From Campylobacteraceae bacterium (lineage in GTDB: Bacteria; Campylobacterota; Campylobacteria; Campylobacterales; Sulfurovaceae): 64,000 nt of DNA. A program made the position numbers and the translations under genes. The notes under the pieces are model-generated. The model ran no database searches. It had not been told where the DNA came from and saw only the letters and a list, made by a program, of their open reading frames with translations. The stretch spans positions 1-64,000 of the forward strand of contig JALVUD010000036.1 in the NCBI GenBank assembly GCA_027035765.1. The letters are read 5' to 3'. Shown here piece by piece: positions 1 through 16,897 of this stretch. Positions within the stretch are counted from its first letter, which is position 1; each line of letters starts with the position of its first letter.

Positions 1-808
1 CCCAGATGATGTAGCACAGCCCGTTGATCAGCGCCAGGTCGGTGCGGGGTTTGATGGGCAGGTAGATGTCCGCCATGTTGGCGGTTTTGGAATGGCGGGG
101 GTCGACGACGATGATCGTGGGTTTTTTGCCCCTTACCTGCTTGTTTCGTGCGATGTGAAGCTTTAAAATCGGGTGGTTGTCGGCGATGTTGGCGCCGATA
201 AGCATGATCACCTCTGCATGGCTGAAATCCTCGTAGCAGCCCGGAGGGCCGTCGCTGCCGAAGCTCTGCTTGTAGCCCATGACGGCGCTGGCCATGCAGA
301 GGGTGGTGTTGCCGTCGTAGTTGTTGGTCTCCAGCCCCAGCTGGACGAATTTGCCCAGGGTGTAGAACTCTTCGGTGAGCAGCTGCCCCGTGGAGATGAC
401 GCTCACGGCCTTTTTGCCGTACTTTTTCTGAACTTCTTTGAACTTGTCGCTCACAGTCTGGAAGGCTTCGTCCCAGCTCACCTGCTCGAAACTGCCGTTT
501 CGCTTGATCATCGCCCCCGGGAGTCGCGTAGGGGCCCGCACCATCTCGTGTTCGCTGAGCCCCTTGGGGCACAGCGTCCCACGGTTGACCGGATGGTCGG
601 GATCGCCCTTGACATAGACCGGATCGCCGTTTTTGACCCCGATGTAGAGGCCGCAGCCCACCCCGCAGTAACCGCAGGTGGAGCGCACCCACTTGTCGGG
701 GGCTTTGGATTTGGCGACCTTGCCGAAAAAGGGGTCGTCGACCAGGGCGTATTTTTCCTCTTTGATGTCCAGACCCAGAAAGGATTTGGCTTTGTTGAGT
801 AGACTCAT
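1..808 (-). CDS. nasA: Assimilatory-nitrate-reductase-like molybdopterin oxidoreductase, N-terminal part (runs off window start)
   Basis: Minus-strand translation from ATG at 808: MSLLNKAKSFLGLDIKEEKYALVDDPFFGKVAK...RSTCGYCGVGCGLYIGV...GTLCPKGLSEHEM; N-terminal 4Fe-4S and molybdopterin motifs; nitrate assimilation neighbours. Confidence 0.8.
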   Translation of the reverse strand, partial: MSLLNKAKSFLGLDIKEEKYALVDDPFFGKVAKSKAPDKWVRSTCGYCGVGCGLYIGVKNGDPVYVKGDPDHPVNRGTLCPKGLSEHEMVRAPTRLPGAMIKRNGSFEQVSWDEAFQTVSDKFKEVQKKYGKKAVSVISTGQLLTEEFYTLGKFVQLGLETNNYDGNTTLCMASAVMGYKQSFGSDGPPGCYEDFSHAEVIMLIGANIADNHPILKLHIARNKQVRGKKPTIIVVDPRHSKTANMADIYLPIKPRTDLALINGLCYIIW

Positions 809-1027
809 GGCTTTTGGTTCTTTCAGAATATTTGATTTATCTCTGGTCGGGCTGGAGCCCTCCGATGAGGAGATGAAGTCCCGCATCTTTTTATTCCAAT
901 TATAATCGTATTTGAGACAATTTGATGCTGAAAATATAAACAATGGTTAGGAAAACTGCTCTCGACATTTCGGATCAAGTTTAGAATGAGGAGCTTTTTA
1001 AAGGGCTTGATACGTCAAAAATCCTCA

Positions 1028-2043: not shown

Positions 2044-3639
2044 CTAGTGCCTCTGATTCCCCGCAAAGAAATTCCCCGCCAGTCCCAAGGGAACGACGGT
2101 GCGATAGAAGAGGTAGCGTCCGGTGATCTCGCTGACGGTGGCTCCCAGAAGAGCCACAATGAGAGTGATCGCTGCAGCGGTGCCCATATTGGCCGCGGCG
2201 AAGATGATGGCGACCATCGGCAAAGCGATGGCGAAGGCGGCCAGACTCGTCAGACGCAGCTTTTTCAGATGTCCGAAGTGCTCCTCCAGCAGCCGTTTGG
2301 TACGGCTGAGCGGATAGTAGAGGGGATGCTCTTTGTCCAGGTATTTGTAAAAGACCGTCTCATCGTAGATCAGATGCATCTGATAAAGCCCCAGCATCAG
2401 GGTCGGGGCCATCAGAGCCAGGACGCTGCGGGCCTCCCCGGTAAAGGCCAGAACCGTGGCAATCAGCAAAAAGCCCAGATATCCGGTGCCGAAGAATCGC
2501 AGGGTCGTGGACTTGCGGTTCCAGGCGGGGCGGGCGGGGACGCGGTAGATCATCGACTGGGCGTAGATGCCGTAAACCCCCAGCACCGCCACGGGCAGCT
2601 CCACCAGCAGCTTGAGCCACTCTGGCGCCCCCAGATAGTAGAGCAGTGCTAGCAGCGTCACACCCCCGGCGTAGGCCCCCAAAGCCGCCGCTTCGCGGCT
2701 GAGCCAGGAGCTTTTGAGGTTTTTCATGGCTGTGATCGCCAGAATCGGGCGCCCCAGATGCAGGGCTGACAGAGGCAGTCCGATGGCAGCAGGAGCCAGC
2801 ACCGCCAGGACCATCCAAAGGTTGGGAGCGGGGAGCTCCAGGCCCAGCAGATGGAGCAGTTCACCGAAAAAGAGGGCGACGAATCCGCCCACGCTCATTT
2901 GGGTCAGGACCGTCATGAAAACGAGAGGCCATTCGGGGTGGGCAGGTTTGAGGATATGCTCATCAGCGGGGTGGATCTCTTCACCCTCGGGGATTTCGGG
3001 CAGGGTATAGCGGGTGGTGGGTTTGGTGATGCCGACGTCAGGGAGATGGGGGGCGACGCCCTCTTTGGCCATGTCGTTTCGGATCCACTCCTCCTTGTCC
3101 ACCACTTCGATCTGAATGGCGCCGGCGGGGCAGGCCTGCACACAGGCGGGGGTCTGGCCCGCTTCCAGTTTGTCGACGCACATGTGGCATTTGGTGACGA
3201 TCCCCCGCTCTTCGTGGAAGACCGGCACTTCGTAGGGGCAGTTCCAGGTGCAGTACTGGCAGCCGATGCAGTCTTCGTCTACATGGTAGACGATGCCGTT
3301 GTCGAGTTTGATGTAGCTGTTGGTGGGGCAGCCGTTGAGGCACGCGGGGTCGATGCAGTGGTTGCAGCTCATGGAGTTAAACAGCTGCAGGGTGTCGGGG
3401 AAATGCCCCGTCTCCATTTCGCCGACTCTACGCCATTTGACGTCGGCGGGGTTGCCGTTTTGTTCGTTGCAGGCCACTTCGCAGCAGTGGCACCCCACGC
3501 AGGCGGTCATGTCGAAGTGGAAGCGGTACTGTTGGCCCGGTTGCAGCTCGGGGATATCGATGGTGTAGTTGCCGCACTGCATACCGGTGTCGGCTTTGTG
3601 ATTCAGAAAGCTGTCGATGGGGGTAGTTGCTTCACTCAT
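2044..3639 (-). CDS. Fusion of DmsB-like 4Fe-4S ferredoxin and DmsC-like membrane anchor
   Basis: N-terminal CVGCHCCEVACNEQNGNP, CNHCIDPACLNGCP, CIGCQYCTWNCPYEVP cluster motifs followed by about 8 TM segments; likely start MSEATT. Confidence 0.8.
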   Translation of the reverse strand: MSEATTPIDSFLNHKADTGMQCGNYTIDIPELQPGQQYRFHFDMTACVGCHCCEVACNEQNGNPADVKWRRVGEMETGHFPDTLQLFNSMSCNHCIDPACLNGCPTNSYIKLDNGIVYHVDEDCIGCQYCTWNCPYEVPVFHEERGIVTKCHMCVDKLEAGQTPACVQACPAGAIQIEVVDKEEWIRNDMAKEGVAPHLPDVGITKPTTRYTLPEIPEGEEIHPADEHILKPAHPEWPLVFMTVLTQMSVGGFVALFFGELLHLLGLELPAPNLWMVLAVLAPAAIGLPLSALHLGRPILAITAMKNLKSSWLSREAAALGAYAGGVTLLALLYYLGAPEWLKLLVELPVAVLGVYGIYAQSMIYRVPARPAWNRKSTTLRFFGTGYLGFLLIATVLAFTGEARSVLALMAPTLMLGLYQMHLIYDETVFYKYLDKEHPLYYPLSRTKRLLEEHFGHLKKLRLTSLAAFAIALPMVAIIFAAANMGTAAAITLIVALLGATVSEITGRYLFYRTVVPLGLAGNFFAGNQRH

Positions 3640-3813
3640 ATTTTGGACTCCGACATTAGTCAATTGGGTGTATTGTATCACTGAAAGAGTCAGAAGGATG
3701 ATGAAAAAGTGATCATATGCGGAAAGAGATGTCGGTATGGGGAGTTGTGTGTTTCAAACGGTGGGCCCACAGGACGCTACCCTACGGCTTGTGTGCAAGG
3801 GGGAGAGCTCTGT

Positions 3814-9976: not shown

Positions 9977-11608
9977 TTAGCGTAGAAGCAGAACCAGCAA
10001 TATGAGATTGATCACCAAAGAGACGGTAAACGCCCAGCGGTAGACCCGGACCGGCTCCCGCTCCAGGAGCGTAGCGTTTTCAGGGTAGTAGGGGCGGACC
10101 TTTTCGGGGTGGGTCAGTTCGTACTCCATTTCGCTGTAGCGTTCGTAGCGACGGGTTTTGTCCTTTTCGACGGCGCGCATGATGACCGCTTCGAGCCAGG
10201 CGGGGGTGAGAGGGTTGAGACGGCGCAGAGGCGTTGGCGTGCGGAAAGTCGGCGTCTGGAAAGGTTCGATCTCCCCATAGGGGAGTTTGCGACCCAGGGC
10301 TTCGTAGAGGGTGATACCGACAGCGAAGATTTCGGTCTGTTCACTGATACTTTCACCGGTGAAGCGTTCGGGGGCCAGATAGCTGGGGGTCCCGGCCCGG
10401 GAGGCGAGGGAGAAGATCTCCACGATGGAGCCGAAATCGATCAGTTTGTAGACCCGTTTGCCGTGACGGCGCAGCACCAGGATGTTTTCGGGTTTGATGT
10501 CGCCGTGGACCAGATCGTAGCGCAGGAGAAACTGGGAGGCATGGAGCAGAAATTTACCCAGGTTGACCGCATCTTCGACGGGCAGGGGCTTGCGGGCGAT
10601 CTCCTCCTTGAGGGTGGGGGCGTCGATATACTCCATCACATAGTAGCGGCAGCTCCGTTTGGCGGGAATGACCGCTTTGGGGAAGAATCCGGCCTTGAGG
10701 CGGGAGGCGTTCCAGGCCTCTTTGACGAAGCGGTCGAGATAGGTCTCGTCGCGGGTCGCCTCGACGGGCGGGAATTTGAGGACGTAGCGCACCCCTTTTT
10801 TCTCCGCCAGCCAGGTGCGTTCGTTTTGGATGAGGGGGCGCAGCAGTCTGTAGCCGTCGATCGTTTCACCCTTTTTGAGCGTTTCGGGGATCGGCAGGTC
10901 GATCTTTTTGAGGCTTTGACGCTTGGATTCTCCCAGGATGTCGATGGTGACGGCGGTGGTGTCATCGGGGAGGTCATCTTTGACCTTTTTGCTGGCATAC
11001 TTGATCAGAGGAACCGCGCCGGCGACCATCTGTTCGATGATCTCCTTTTCGCTGAGCACCGCTTCCAGTCCGTCGCTAGCCAGGAGTAACCGGTCGCCGA
11101 CATGGAGATTGTTTTCGAAAAAGAAGATCTCTACCTGTTCCTCCATGCCGATGGCTTGAGTCAGGACGTGCTCCATCCCCTCCTCGTGGCTGGTATGGGG
11201 AACGCTTAGGCGCAGCAGCTCCCCCTCGCGGAGCAGGAAAATGGGTGAGTCCCCCACGTTGGCACCGTAGAGGCGGTTTCCTTCGATGACGGCAACGCTG
11301 AGGGTGGTGAGATATTCGGGGCGTTCATACTCTTCGATCCCCTCACGGTAGAGGATTTCGTTGATATTGCTGATGAAGTGACGAAGGGATTTTTCGATAC
11401 TCCAGCTGCGGGGACGGGCTTTGAAGCTGTTGAGGAGGTAATTCACCGCCCGGCGGGAAGCCTTGGCCCCGGCGGCGGCGCTGCCGACCCCGTCGCAGAG
11501 CACCGTGATACAGAGGTCGTCGACCACCCGCACTGCGGCGAAATCTTCACTGAGAGGCTCTTTGCCTTTGGCCAGGCCGAAGGTGGAGGTTTTGAAAAGG
11601 GAAGACAT
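9977..11608 (-). CDS. Fused PP2C phosphatase and Ser/Thr protein kinase with C-terminal TM
   Basis: PP2C CDGVGSAAAGAKASRRA, GANVGDSPIFLLR, DDTTAV; kinase HGDIKPENIL, KLIDFGSI, APERF; C-terminal hydrophobic helix. Confidence 0.9.
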   Translation of the reverse strand: MSSLFKTSTFGLAKGKEPLSEDFAAVRVVDDLCITVLCDGVGSAAAGAKASRRAVNYLLNSFKARPRSWSIEKSLRHFISNINEILYREGIEEYERPEYLTTLSVAVIEGNRLYGANVGDSPIFLLREGELLRLSVPHTSHEEGMEHVLTQAIGMEEQVEIFFFENNLHVGDRLLLASDGLEAVLSEKEIIEQMVAGAVPLIKYASKKVKDDLPDDTTAVTIDILGESKRQSLKKIDLPIPETLKKGETIDGYRLLRPLIQNERTWLAEKKGVRYVLKFPPVEATRDETYLDRFVKEAWNASRLKAGFFPKAVIPAKRSCRYYVMEYIDAPTLKEEIARKPLPVEDAVNLGKFLLHASQFLLRYDLVHGDIKPENILVLRRHGKRVYKLIDFGSIVEIFSLASRAGTPSYLAPERFTGESISEQTEIFAVGITLYEALGRKLPYGEIEPFQTPTFRTPTPLRRLNPLTPAWLEAVIMRAVEKDKTRRYERYSEMEYELTHPEKVRPYYPENATLLEREPVRVYRWAFTVSLVINLILLVLLLR

Positions 11609-11639: not shown

Positions 11640-11748
11640 TCGCTACGCGAATCGGCATTGGGCATTGAGGCATTTGGAAAATATTACCAATGCCAGCGAA
11701 GCGCAATGCCTCAATGCCCAATTCCCGGATTTGACTTTTGTCAAATCC
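11640..11748. repeat. Heptamer/hairpin element, family alpha copy 1 (GGCATTG / CAATGCC arms)
   Basis: ggcattg ggcattg aggcattt ... caatgcc agcgaagcg caatgcct caatgccc, with GGATTTGAC-tttt-GTCAAATCC hairpin over the narK stop. Confidence 0.8.
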
Positions 11749-13015
11749 GACCCCCCGCACTTACTCCCCAGGTAGTGCGCCAGCGGGTTTTGACCAGGCT
11801 GATGCCGAGGATGGCGACGGCGATGACGGCGGCAAAGAGGAAGAACCCCGCGGCATAGCCGCCAAAGGCGCTCTTGGACCATCCTAGGGTCTTGATGAGC
11901 GCCGTTCCGCCCAAGCCGCCGGCACAGCCGACGATGCCGGTCATGATCCCCATATCCCGGCCGAAGCGCTGCGGGACCAGCTGGAAGACTGCGCCGTTGG
12001 CCATCCCCAGATTGGCCATGATCAGAAAGAGGATTAGGATCGCCAGGTAGAAGTTGTGCACGAAGGCGTTGAAAATTGCCAGAGCCGCCGTGGCGCCGAA
12101 GAAGAGATAGAGGCTCTTGACCCCACCCATCTTGTCGGCGATCCCACCCCCCACAGGACGCAGTACCGCCCCGGCAAAGATACACAGCGCTCCGAAGTAG
12201 CCGGCGACCACCTTGACGTTGGGTTCGTTCAGGTATTCCAGGCCGAATCGGCTCATATCGACCTGATAGGTGTTCATCAGGTAGACCTTCATGTAGTTGG
12301 CGAAGCCGACGAAGCCTCCGAAGCTGACAGCGTAGAAGAGGCTGAACCACCAGGTGTCTTTGTCACGCAGGAGTTTGAGGTAGTCGCTCAGTTTCTTGGG
12401 ATTGGGCTTGTAGACGTCGGTGGGAGCGTCCTTGGCCATCAGGGTATACATGATGAAAATGAAGGTCGAGAGAATAGCGCCTACCAGAAAAACCGCCTGC
12501 CATCCCCAGAGCTCCGCGATCTTGGGGGCGAAGAGGAAGTCCAGGACCACGCCGATGTTCCCCGCGCCCGCCAGACCCAGCACCAGCCCCTGCAGCCGCG
12601 GAGGGTACCACTGCCCCGCCTGCGGGAGGACCACGGCGAAGGAGGCGCCGGCGAAACCGAGGCCGAAGGCGACCGCCAGCAATTCGTTATAGGTGATGTT
12701 CTCTCCCCGGAAGTAGGCGTAGAAAAGCGAAGCGATGACGATCGCCTGAGCGATCAGGGCCGTCTTTTTGGGCCCGATCTGATCGACCAGGAAGCCGAGC
12801 AGAATCCGCAGAATCGCTCCAGAGAGGATAGGGATCGCCAGGAGGGTCGCTTTTTGGTTGGGGTCGAGGTGGTAGCCGTGGGCCACGAGTGACTGGCTGA
12901 TCTCCGTCGCCAGCGGCCCCAGCATGGTCCAGACCATGAAGCTGAAGTCGAAGTAGAGGAAGGCGGCCAACAGGGTGGGGAAGTGGCCGGCCGTTTTGAG
13001 TTCACCGAATTTCAT
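11741..13015 (-). CDS. narK: NarK-type nitrate/nitrite MFS transporter
   Basis: 424 aa, 12 TM MFS; GLGFAGASFAVVLPQAGQWYPPRLQGLVLGLAGAGNIG and downstream NarK-like sequence. Confidence 0.9.
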   Translation of the reverse strand: MKFGELKTAGHFPTLLAAFLYFDFSFMVWTMLGPLATEISQSLVAHGYHLDPNQKATLLAIPILSGAILRILLGFLVDQIGPKKTALIAQAIVIASLFYAYFRGENITYNELLAVAFGLGFAGASFAVVLPQAGQWYPPRLQGLVLGLAGAGNIGVVLDFLFAPKIAELWGWQAVFLVGAILSTFIFIMYTLMAKDAPTDVYKPNPKKLSDYLKLLRDKDTWWFSLFYAVSFGGFVGFANYMKVYLMNTYQVDMSRFGLEYLNEPNVKVVAGYFGALCIFAGAVLRPVGGGIADKMGGVKSLYLFFGATAALAIFNAFVHNFYLAILILFLIMANLGMANGAVFQLVPQRFGRDMGIMTGIVGCAGGLGGTALIKTLGWSKSAFGGYAAGFFLFAAVIAVAILGISLVKTRWRTTWGVSAGGRI

Positions 13016-13152
13016 CTGTCGTACTCCTGGTGTGTATGATGGCGAAATTATAGATCAGATAACGTTGCGTTGTATGTTTATTTTTTAATCAATAGATTGG
13101 AATGTATTTGAATATACTTCCAGCAAGAAAATGTTCCAAAGAGGTATATATC

Positions 13153-15051
13153 ATGCAACTGGAAGCGATAAGCGCCCGACATACTAAAATCAACAAGATC
13201 GAAAAACTCAAAGAGACCCGCAGTTATGAGGAGGCATGGGAAGCGCTGTTGCGTTATGCACAAGAGGGTTACGATGCCATCTCTAAAGAAGACAAAGAGT
13301 ATTTTCTCAAAACTTTCGGGATCTTTGACCGCCCGGCGACACCCGGCAAATTCATGCTTCGCGTCCGCATCCCAGGCGGACGCCTGACGAGCGAGCAGGC
13401 AACCCGCCTGGGGGAGCTTGCACGAGATTATGGTGAAGATGCGATGGATCTGACGACCCGGATGCAGGTACAGCTGCGCTACCTGAAAATCGAGGATCTT
13501 CCCACGGTTCTGGAGGGGCTCGAAGCTGTCGGCATCACCACCTGGCAGACGGGGGTGGACAACTTCCGCAACATCGTCACCGATCCTCTCGACGGCCTGG
13601 CCTTCGACAACCTGATCGAGTGTGCACCGCTCATCGAAGTCATGCAGTCGCTCTGGCTCAAGCAACCCGAATACATCAATGTACTTCCGAGAAAATTCAA
13701 CACCGCCGTCAGCGGCTCTTTGGCCAACCGCTGCAACCTCTTTGCCCATGATATCTGTTTCGCCCTGGCCAACAAGGAGGGGGAGTACGGCTTCAACCTC
13801 TATCTGGGAGGCAAGGTCGGAGCCATCGCCGAGCGGGCCGATATTTTCGTTACACCGGACGAGCTGATGGAGCTCTACAAGGCTGTCATCGATACTTATA
13901 TAAAGTACGGCTTCCGGGACAGCCGCAACCGCAACCGACTCCACTTCGTGATCAAAGAGGCAGGGATGCAGAGCTTCGTCAACGCGGTCAAAGAGACCGC
14001 CGGGCGGGATTTCGACAGCGCCGGAGAGACCCTGGTCAAAACCCCCCGCACGGAAGAGGCCGACGGGCGCATTCGTCTCAAAGACGGCAGTTGGGCCCTG
14101 CATACGGTCGTCCCCTCGGGAATCTTCCATGGGACAGCGATGATCGATGCGGCGAAAAATGCCGAGAAACACGGTTCGGGAACGCTCAATATCTCCACGA
14201 CCCAGAATCTCTTCCTCCTGGGGGTACCCACGGAGAAGATCGGCGCTGCCCTGGCTGAGGCCCCCTATGACCGCTACCGCAACGTCAGCACTCCCTACTT
14301 CAATCAGCTGGTGGCCTGTGCCGGATCGGATCTCTGCCCCTACGGCGTCATCCCCAACAAAGCCGACGCCATCGAGATGGCCGAGAAACTGGGAGAGCGG
14401 GTTCCCCTGCCGACGGATGCTTCGATCCGGATGCACTGGTCGGGGTGTGTCAAAGGATGTGGGGTCCACGAGCTGGGGGATATCGGCTTCGTCGGCTGTA
14501 AGGTCAAGGTGGACGGTCAAAGCGCCTACGGCGTGCATATCCAGTTGGGAGGCAAATCGACCGCCAGCCAGGAGGAGGCCTACACCATCCTCAAAAGTAT
14601 CCCGCTGACTCAGGCGACCGACTACATCGCCCAGCTGGCGTCGGCCTATCGGGATCTGCGCCGGAAGCGGGAGAGTTTCGAACGCTTCGAGAGCCGGGTG
14701 CTTCGCCGCTACTCCAAAGGAGCCCTGGGCTTTTTGCTCCACTGGAATGTCCGGATCGCCCTGTCCAAAGGCTGGGAGGCTCTCGCCATCCGGGAGAACT
14801 GGGAAGCCGGCGAAGAGCGCAACGAGATCTTTCTCCTTGGACTGGAGATCTACAAAGCCCTCGCCGGCAGAAGCGCCTACCAGGGGATCCATCACTACGA
14901 CCCCATCGAGAAGACCCCCGCCGAAACGCTCCATCGGCTCAATCCTTCTGTGGACAAAGAGCTTAGCGGTGTGGTGATGAAGATGATCGCGCCCTCCGAA
15001 AAACGTTACGAAGTCTTTACCGAAATATTGGCTGATCTTGGGATCAAGTAA
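13153..15051 (+). CDS. nirA: Ferredoxin-type nitrite reductase with kinase-C-lobe-like C-terminal extension
   Basis: Nitrite/sulfite reductase domains; VACAGSDLCPYGVIPNKA and HWSGCVKGCGVHELGDIGFVGCK siroheme/4Fe-4S motifs; extra C-terminus. Confidence 0.85.
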   Translation: MQLEAISARHTKINKIEKLKETRSYEEAWEALLRYAQEGYDAISKEDKEYFLKTFGIFDRPATPGKFMLRVRIPGGRLTSEQATRLGELARDYGEDAMDLTTRMQVQLRYLKIEDLPTVLEGLEAVGITTWQTGVDNFRNIVTDPLDGLAFDNLIECAPLIEVMQSLWLKQPEYINVLPRKFNTAVSGSLANRCNLFAHDICFALANKEGEYGFNLYLGGKVGAIAERADIFVTPDELMELYKAVIDTYIKYGFRDSRNRNRLHFVIKEAGMQSFVNAVKETAGRDFDSAGETLVKTPRTEEADGRIRLKDGSWALHTVVPSGIFHGTAMIDAAKNAEKHGSGTLNISTTQNLFLLGVPTEKIGAALAEAPYDRYRNVSTPYFNQLVACAGSDLCPYGVIPNKADAIEMAEKLGERVPLPTDASIRMHWSGCVKGCGVHELGDIGFVGCKVKVDGQSAYGVHIQLGGKSTASQEEAYTILKSIPLTQATDYIAQLASAYRDLRRKRESFERFESRVLRRYSKGALGFLLHWNVRIALSKGWEALAIRENWEAGEERNEIFLLGLEIYKALAGRSAYQGIHHYDPIEKTPAETLHRLNPSVDKELSGVVMKMIAPSEKRYEVFTEILADLGIK

Positions 15052-15254: not shown

Positions 15255-16517
15255 ATGAAGCTGAAACTTCTCGCGCTACTCGCAACCCTCCTGCCCGTCG
15301 CCGCTATGGCGGGCGAAGCCAAGATCGATACGGGCGATACCGCCTGGATGATCGTGGCTACTGCCCTGGTCATGCTGATGACTCCGGCCGGTCTAGCCCT
15401 CTTCTACGGCGGTCTGACTCGTCGGAAAAATGTGCTCAACACCATCGGGATGAGCCTGATCGCTTTTGCCGTGGGAACCCTGGTCTGGGTGGTCGCCGGC
15501 TACTCCATCGCCTTCGGTTCCGGTGATCTCATCGGTACCGGCAAGATTCTCCTGGCCGGCATCACCGACAAGACAGTCAACGGGACCATCCCTGAACTGC
15601 TCTTCGTCGCCTTCCAGGGAACTTTCGCCGCCATCACCGTGGCCATCGCCAGCGGTTCGATGATCGAGCGGGTGAAGTTCTCCACCTTTGCGATCTTTGC
15701 GGCGCTTTGGATTCTGGTCGTCTATGCTCCCATCACCCACTGGGCCTGGGGCGGCGGTGAAATGCTCAACTTCGGCGAAATGGACTTCGCCGGCGGTACC
15801 GTCGTTCATATCAATGCCGGGGTCGCCGGATTCGTCGTCGCTATGATCCTGGGTAAGCGCCGGGATTACGGCAAAGCGGCGGTCAAGCCCTTCTCTCCCA
15901 TCCTGGTAGTTCTGGGGGCTGCACTGCTCTGGTTCGGATGGTTCGGTTTCAACGCCGGTTCCGAAGTCGCCGCTGACGGCGTTGCCGCCAACGCGTTCCT
16001 GGTGACCAATGTGGCTGCTTCTCTCGGTGTAATCGGCTGGATTCTGACCGAGTATCTCCTCTATAAGAAAGCGACCCTCGTCGGCGGTGCTTCCGGTGCC
16101 GTCGCCGGTCTGGTCGCCATCACTCCCGCCTCCGGTAGTGCCGGAGTCGTCGGAGCCATCATCATCGGTCTGGTCGGCGGTGCTCTGGGAGCACTGGCCG
16201 TCTCCAAAATCAAAAAGCTCTTCCCCGTCGATGACTCTCTGGATGCCTTCTGGGTCCACGGTCTGGTAGGAATCTGGGGCTCCATCGCCACGGCGCTGTT
16301 TATCGCTCCCTATCTGATGCCCGAGAACTACCACCTGGGTACGCAGCTGCTGGCCCAGATCAAAGCGATCCTGCTGACGGTCGTCTACAGCGGCGTGATG
16401 ACAGCGGTGGTCTACTTCGTCTCCAGCCTCCTTACCGGCGGCGGACGGGTCGATGACGAGACCGAGCTGATGGGTCTGGACGAAGCGGTCCACGGTGAAG
16501 AGGCGATCAACCTCTGA
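15255..16517 (+). CDS. amtB: Ammonium transporter
   Basis: 420 aa; signal peptide, FYGGLTRRKNVLNTIGMS, DFAGGTVVHINAGVAG, FWVHGLVGIWG. Confidence 0.95.
   Translation: MKLKLLALLATLLPVAAMAGEAKIDTGDTAWMIVATALVMLMTPAGLALFYGGLTRRKNVLNTIGMSLIAFAVGTLVWVVAGYSIAFGSGDLIGTGKILLAGITDKTVNGTIPELLFVAFQGTFAAITVAIASGSMIERVKFSTFAIFAALWILVVYAPITHWAWGGGEMLNFGEMDFAGGTVVHINAGVAGFVVAMILGKRRDYGKAAVKPFSPILVVLGAALLWFGWFGFNAGSEVAADGVAANAFLVTNVAASLGVIGWILTEYLLYKKATLVGGASGAVAGLVAITPASGSAGVVGAIIIGLVGGALGALAVSKIKKLFPVDDSLDAFWVHGLVGIWGSIATALFIAPYLMPENYHLGTQLLAQIKAILLTVVYSGVMTAVVYFVSSLLTGGGRVDDETELMGLDEAVHGEEAINL

Positions 16518-16552: not shown

Positions 16553-16897
<345 letters not shown>

Follow-up and report, generated by a model that had tools for sequence, protein, structure and literature searches.

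Why does a nitrite reductase carry, behind its catalytic core, what looks like a piece of a protein kinase? The question is raised by nirA (13153..15051, forward strand), which encodes a siroheme/[4Fe-4S] nitrite reductase of 632 aa in a stretch of 64,000 nucleotides from a Campylobacteraceae bacterium (contig JALVUD010000036.1, called the window below). The last 117 or so residues of the predicted protein (516-632; 14698..15048, forward strand) form a domain that appears to derive from a kinase C-lobe, and a gene for a complete kinase lies close by.

The nitrite reductase and its neighbours

The probable start of nirA is the ATG at 13153, a further in-frame ATG being present upstream at 13102. 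Residues 1-515 (13153..14697, forward strand) are, as far as sequence and model can tell, an intact and ordinary siroheme nitrite/sulfite reductase core. The Pfam families NIR_SIR (1.4e-37) and NIR_SIR_ferr (5.8e-31) each matched in two stretches, and the cluster/siroheme cysteines C389, C395, C432 and C436 were invariant in an alignment of 27 NirA orthologues. The best NCBIfam family was PRK09566, ferredoxin--nitrite reductase (1.2e-100), with a score of 337 bits that lies below the cut-off of 594; NirA thus appears to be a divergent member of this family. An AlphaFold model of the full-length protein (pLDDT 90.1) found plant NiR (3b0g, 3.2e-41) and NirA of Mycobacterium tuberculosis (1zj8, 3.5e-38) as its top PDB matches, and PknB ranked directly behind the nitrite/sulfite reductases. 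From the fold and from the clustering with narK and nasA-like genes we infer that NirA would reduce nitrite to ammonium.

The genes around nirA can be read as nitrate-assimilation genes. A narK nitrate/nitrite transporter gene (11741..13015, reverse strand; NCBIfam TIGR00886, 5.7e-74) is divergent from nirA. The gene at 9977..11608 (reverse strand) encodes a fusion of PP2C phosphatase and Ser/Thr kinase of 543 aa (Pfam PP2C_2, 3.3e-17; Pkinase, 4.5e-21), which possesses HGDIKPEN and DFG motifs and ends in a hydrophobic anchor (C-terminal hydropathy 2.2). Downstream of nirA, sequence reading identified an ammonium transporter gene, amt (15255..16517, forward strand), and a glnK/glnB gene for a PII signalling protein (16556..16897, forward strand), homologues of which reappear in related clusters. 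The window also encodes a 4Fe-4S electron-transfer protein with a membrane part (2044..3681, reverse strand); its counterpart in another genome of the order, 58% identical, adjoins nasA and a tailed nirA there. The end of the contig is occupied by a partial nasA/nasC-like gene for the catalytic subunit of an assimilatory nitrate reductase (1..943, reverse strand; NF047855 match at C36:5-715, 1.7e-50). Since the start of contig C20 carries a piece covering the remainder of the NF047855 profile, contigs C36 and C20 may join at this gene.

Kinase ancestry of the tail

The first-pass annotation had described a C-lobe-like extension without N-lobe, HRD or DFG at 14818..15048 (forward strand; residues 556-632). 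This peptide is in frame and covers the kinase homology from alphaF to alphaI, but the domain itself starts earlier, at about residue 516 (14698). It is composed of helices at 522-539, 555-571 (alphaF-like), 602-611 (alphaH-like) and 622-628 (alphaI-like), with a short alphaG-like region (Y...F.P) at 572-596. Helix 555-571 aligns with kinase alphaF (EIFxxGxxxYxxLxG), and a conserved Arg and the motif VF[ST]E[IVL] mark the alphaI position. Homology to kinases is confined to the last 80 or so residues; the first helix fits kinase alphaE in position, with no sequence support for this equivalence from hhalign (P 0.26).

The relationship to the neighbouring kinase, counted by eye in the first-pass annotation as about 22 identities over about 73 columns, was recovered by BLASTP: NirA residues 500-632 and the product of 9977..11608 share 27 identities and 44 positives in 81 columns (E 3e-9). 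When used alone, the tail sequence gave marginal scores (NCBIfam MAD6 kinase, E 0.0077; PknB in the PDB, E 0.28) and no Pfam match. A profile built from 19 tails was far more telling. Among PDB sequences it found a PknB-type kinase of Staphylococcus aureus (1.2e-7, the best match) and StkP (8.5e-6), and 16 of the 19 tails matched the NCBIfam PknB kinase model (best 1.6e-4), 14 the MAD6 model (best 3e-5). In a six-frame search of its own genome the tail profile had just two matches, NirA itself and the C-lobe stretch of the neighbouring PP2C-kinase (10112..10369, reverse strand; 4.5e-12). Comparison of 38 tails with the C-lobes of the cluster kinases by hhalign gave a probability of 98.3% (E 2.4e-14; 82 columns, 29% identity).

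The predicted structure leads to the same family. A model of residues 516-632, built without templates and without kinases in the alignment, reached a pLDDT of 93.4 and a pTM of 0.87, and its best 50 matches in the PDB were all protein kinases, headed by PknB of M. tuberculosis (6b2p; probability 1.00, TMq 0.53 by query length, 87 columns). The top matches among viral proteins were likewise kinases. Profile comparison and fold, on which the first-pass annotation had staked its reading, therefore both return kinases, and descent of the NirA tail from a protein-kinase C-lobe appears almost certain. An assembly or frame artefact is ruled out by the unbroken reading frame in more than 60 genomes. 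The N-lobe, the VAIK Lys, HRD, DFG and APE were absent from every tail inspected for these motifs, which indicates that the tail lacks residues for ATP binding or catalysis. Only about 40 residues separate the reductase core from alphaF, too few to accommodate a catalytic loop, DFG and APE, and the tail is therefore neither a kinase nor a full pseudokinase domain.

Within the kinases, the tail probably descends from the PP2C-kinase family of its own nitrate-assimilation cluster. The tail profile scored 40-59 bits against most cluster PP2C-kinases and at most 37 bits against other kinases of the same genomes, and mean tail identity was 25% to the former and 19% to the latter. Glu replaces the canonical alphaF Asp in 38 of 38 tails and 45 of 45 cluster kinases, and never in the 18 other kinases compared, which include a divergent PP2C-kinase subfamily. 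Tails and cluster kinases were grouped in the tree with moderate support (69/71; 128 of 200 bootstraps), and the AU test did not reject trees in which the tails join other groups of kinases (p 0.26-0.32). In some genomes nirA adjoins the kinase gene, either in tandem or convergently with the 3' ends together, so that simple routes to a fusion exist.

Two groups of related sequences deserve mention. The divergent PP2C-kinase subfamily, seen at ten loci, is about 30% identical and has the canonical alphaF Asp; some genomes without the usual kinase have a member of it close to their tailed nirA. Five further loci contain open frames of about 1500-2070 aa with kinase domains and weak matches to the tail profile.

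Distribution and history

The search for NirA homologues with the same tail proposed by the first-pass annotation found full-tailed NirA in 61 of 398 genomes spread over the phylum Campylobacterota. These belong to many families, and tailed loci were attributed to Nitratifractor, Hydrogenimonas, Sulfurimonas, Nitratiruptor, Sulfuricurvum and Sulfurospirillum, among others. The hosts are sulfur- and hydrogen-oxidising bacteria. All of the best 80 matches listed, which are related loci, possessed the tail. The NirA-like matches listed from plasmids of other phyla had none, stopping at about query residue 500. Tailed NirA was also seen in three MAGs titled Persephonella or Aquificota, which may reflect horizontal transfer or misbinning.

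In a tree of NirA cores a tail-less clade of 13 members (support 100) is nested among tailed sequences, and the tail looks ancestral in this NirA lineage. The simplest history is an early gain, one loss in the 13-member clade and a shortening in one genus. The tails are monophyletic in the kinase C-lobe tree (99/96), which points to a single origin; on this evidence a single early fusion apparently joined it to the siroheme enzyme of Campylobacterota. Shortened forms were observed in three genomes, where NirA has 565-590 aa and retains the first tail helix, the C-lobe part being gone; in one of them (L174) the next gene starts immediately after nirA.

For the closest same-genus pairs the dN/dS of the tail was mostly 0.09-0.17, and its dN exceeded the core value by a factor of about 1.8. 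The tail is thus under purifying selection but less constrained than the core. Its residues E558, V621 and E624 are invariant. The first-pass annotation had considered a remnant of a fusion or deletion event: an origin by fusion fits these data, but conservation across the phylum, monophyly and purifying selection speak against decaying debris, and a relic of local extent is ruled out by the distribution together with the dN/dS values. One pair of genomes (G080 and G082) shares 95-98% identity over most of the narK-kinase-nas-nirA block, but the value falls to 71% and then to 49% where the NirA tail begins, with a dS of 0.07 in the core and 1.45 in the tail. This pattern indicates that recombination had its breakpoint at the tail or within it.

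Possible function of the tail

What might such a fragment do? Much of the argument turns on the PP2C-kinase. The cluster kinase or its divergent form was found in 57 of 61 tailed genomes and in 8 of 14 with tail-less NirA (Fisher p 0.002, a value that ignores relatedness). Several tailed MAGs (G239, G283, G338 and G422), perhaps incomplete, had no kinase, and the kinase is kept in 8 of 13 genomes of the tail-less clade, so it does not need the tail. A hydrophobic helix ends the kinase in 35 of 36 cases, and homologues outside the phylum adjoin FNT or NarK transporters at four of the five plasmid loci read. The kinase therefore looks like a membrane-anchored, transporter-associated kinase/phosphatase. 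These plasmid homologues occur in, for instance, Azospirillum, Methylobacterium and Acinetobacter beside genes for FNT nitrite/formate or NarK transporters, and cyanase genes are close by in Sulfitobacter and Acinetobacter. When NirA core distance was removed, tail distance correlated with that of the kinase N-lobe/catalytic part (partial r 0.28, permutation p 0.001) and not with that of the PP2C part (partial r 0.03). Partial Mantel tests tend to be liberal and this one was exploratory; we take the result as a weak hint of co-evolution between tail and kinase.

The activation of PknB-type kinases is attributed to an asymmetric front-to-front dimer (PMC3601408), and the kinase fold has widely been put to new use as an interaction module (PMC8141879). 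Taken together with the co-occurrence, the shared ancestry, the anchor and transporter context and the co-variation, this suggests indirectly that the tail may dock on the PP2C-kinase, one of the two readings offered by the first-pass annotation. We would give an even chance to the proposal that it is a docking module of kinase origin by which NirA is tied to this membrane-anchored, transporter-associated enzyme. The tail would imitate a kinase surface, and its partner would be held at the membrane by its C-terminal hydrophobic helix, in a genetic association with nitrate/nitrite transporters. Docking might bring NirA to the membrane beside NarK and the nitrate reductase; alternatively, the kinase/phosphatase might sense or modify the docked NirA. 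Either way, nitrate uptake could be matched to the capacity for nitrite removal and a build-up of nitrite avoided. A more specific version, which we put forward tentatively as the less likely one, is that the tail replaces the second kinase protomer; how much NirA is present, or in what state, would then directly switch the kinase/phosphatase controlling nitrate uptake. If this version is true, a core metabolic enzyme has acquired half a kinase as a built-in regulatory subunit.

Other explanations have to be weighed against docking on the kinase. The marginal scores of single sequences might be thought to indicate a chance or convergent resemblance between helical sequences. We consider this refuted, with scarcely any probability left to it, because searches by profile, by profile-profile comparison and by fold all lead to one segment of one fold, with its parts in the same order, and the sole other match in its own genome is a kinase. 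The tail could also be a neutral leftover of the fusion, as its loss in one clade, its shortening elsewhere and its faster evolution relative to the core might suggest. This reading is disfavoured, and in our view very improbable, given that 61 genomes from many families have kept the tail intact, with a dN/dS of mostly about 0.1-0.17 between close relatives and three invariant residues.

More serious is the idea that a kinase-derived module serves the oligomerisation or stability of NirA with no contact to the kinase at all. Kinase C-lobes can self-associate, the tail folds well both alone and in the full NirA model, the kinase persists after tail loss, and some tailed MAGs have no detectable kinase. 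This would leave the frequent company of the kinase (57 of 61 genomes) and the co-variation with its kinase domain to be accounted for, and also the retention of alphaG-region features, among them the F of the EPF motif in 23 of 38 tails (45 of 45 cluster kinases); we judge it possible but unlikely. Another partner is conceivable too, for instance the electron-transfer subunit of the membrane-bound nitrate reductase, a ferredoxin or NarK, on which the tail might dock NirA for the channelling of nitrite or electrons. The same clusters do contain nasA and the gene for its 4Fe-4S/membrane subunit, together with narK, amt and glnK, but a surface derived from a kinase would be odd for such partners and no sequence link was found, which makes this possibility the more doubtful of the two.

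Limited searches of open-access literature yielded neither a report of a kinase-like tail on a nitrite reductase nor a paper on a role of these PP2C-kinases in bacterial nitrate assimilation. As no Pfam or NCBIfam model reaches its curated threshold on the tail, the architecture has stayed unannotated in dozens of genomes. This phylum-wide, kinase-derived domain on an assimilatory nitrite reductase would show that about 80-117 residues of a kinase C-lobe suffice for a domain that persists by itself under selection. It also suggests a partner for those PP2C-kinases whose genes adjoin nitrate/nitrite transporters.

How does this protein compare with known systems? With the assimilatory ferredoxin-dependent nitrite reductases Nii/NirA (PDB 3b0g and 2akj; 1zj8 from M. 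tuberculosis) it shares the core fold over about 506-539 columns, the same four SiR/NiR half-domains and the [4Fe-4S]-siroheme cysteines, but those enzymes have no kinase-like C-terminal domain. The tail has the C-lobe fold in common with the Hanks-type kinases PknB, StkP and the S. aureus PknB-type enzyme (6b2p, 9ru3, 4eqm; probability 1.00, TMq about 0.5), of whose kinase domain it represents about one third, without the active site. The PP2C-kinase of nitrate/nitrite loci (annotated as 'bifunctional protein-serine/threonine kinase/phosphatase') shares its C-lobe sequence from alphaF to alphaI with the tail, both having the EIFxxG helix with Glu for Asp, the xF-P motif and the RYxxYSE/RxxVFSE end, whereas the PP2C domain, N-lobe, catalytic loop, activation segment and C-terminal anchor are missing from the tail. 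Comparable in the proposed mode of action are the scaffold and allosteric pseudokinases (PMC8141879), where a kinase fold without catalysis likewise acts through protein-protein contact; the reviewed examples, however, use kinase-fold domains, while NirA is a metabolic redox enzyme to which half a C-lobe has been joined.
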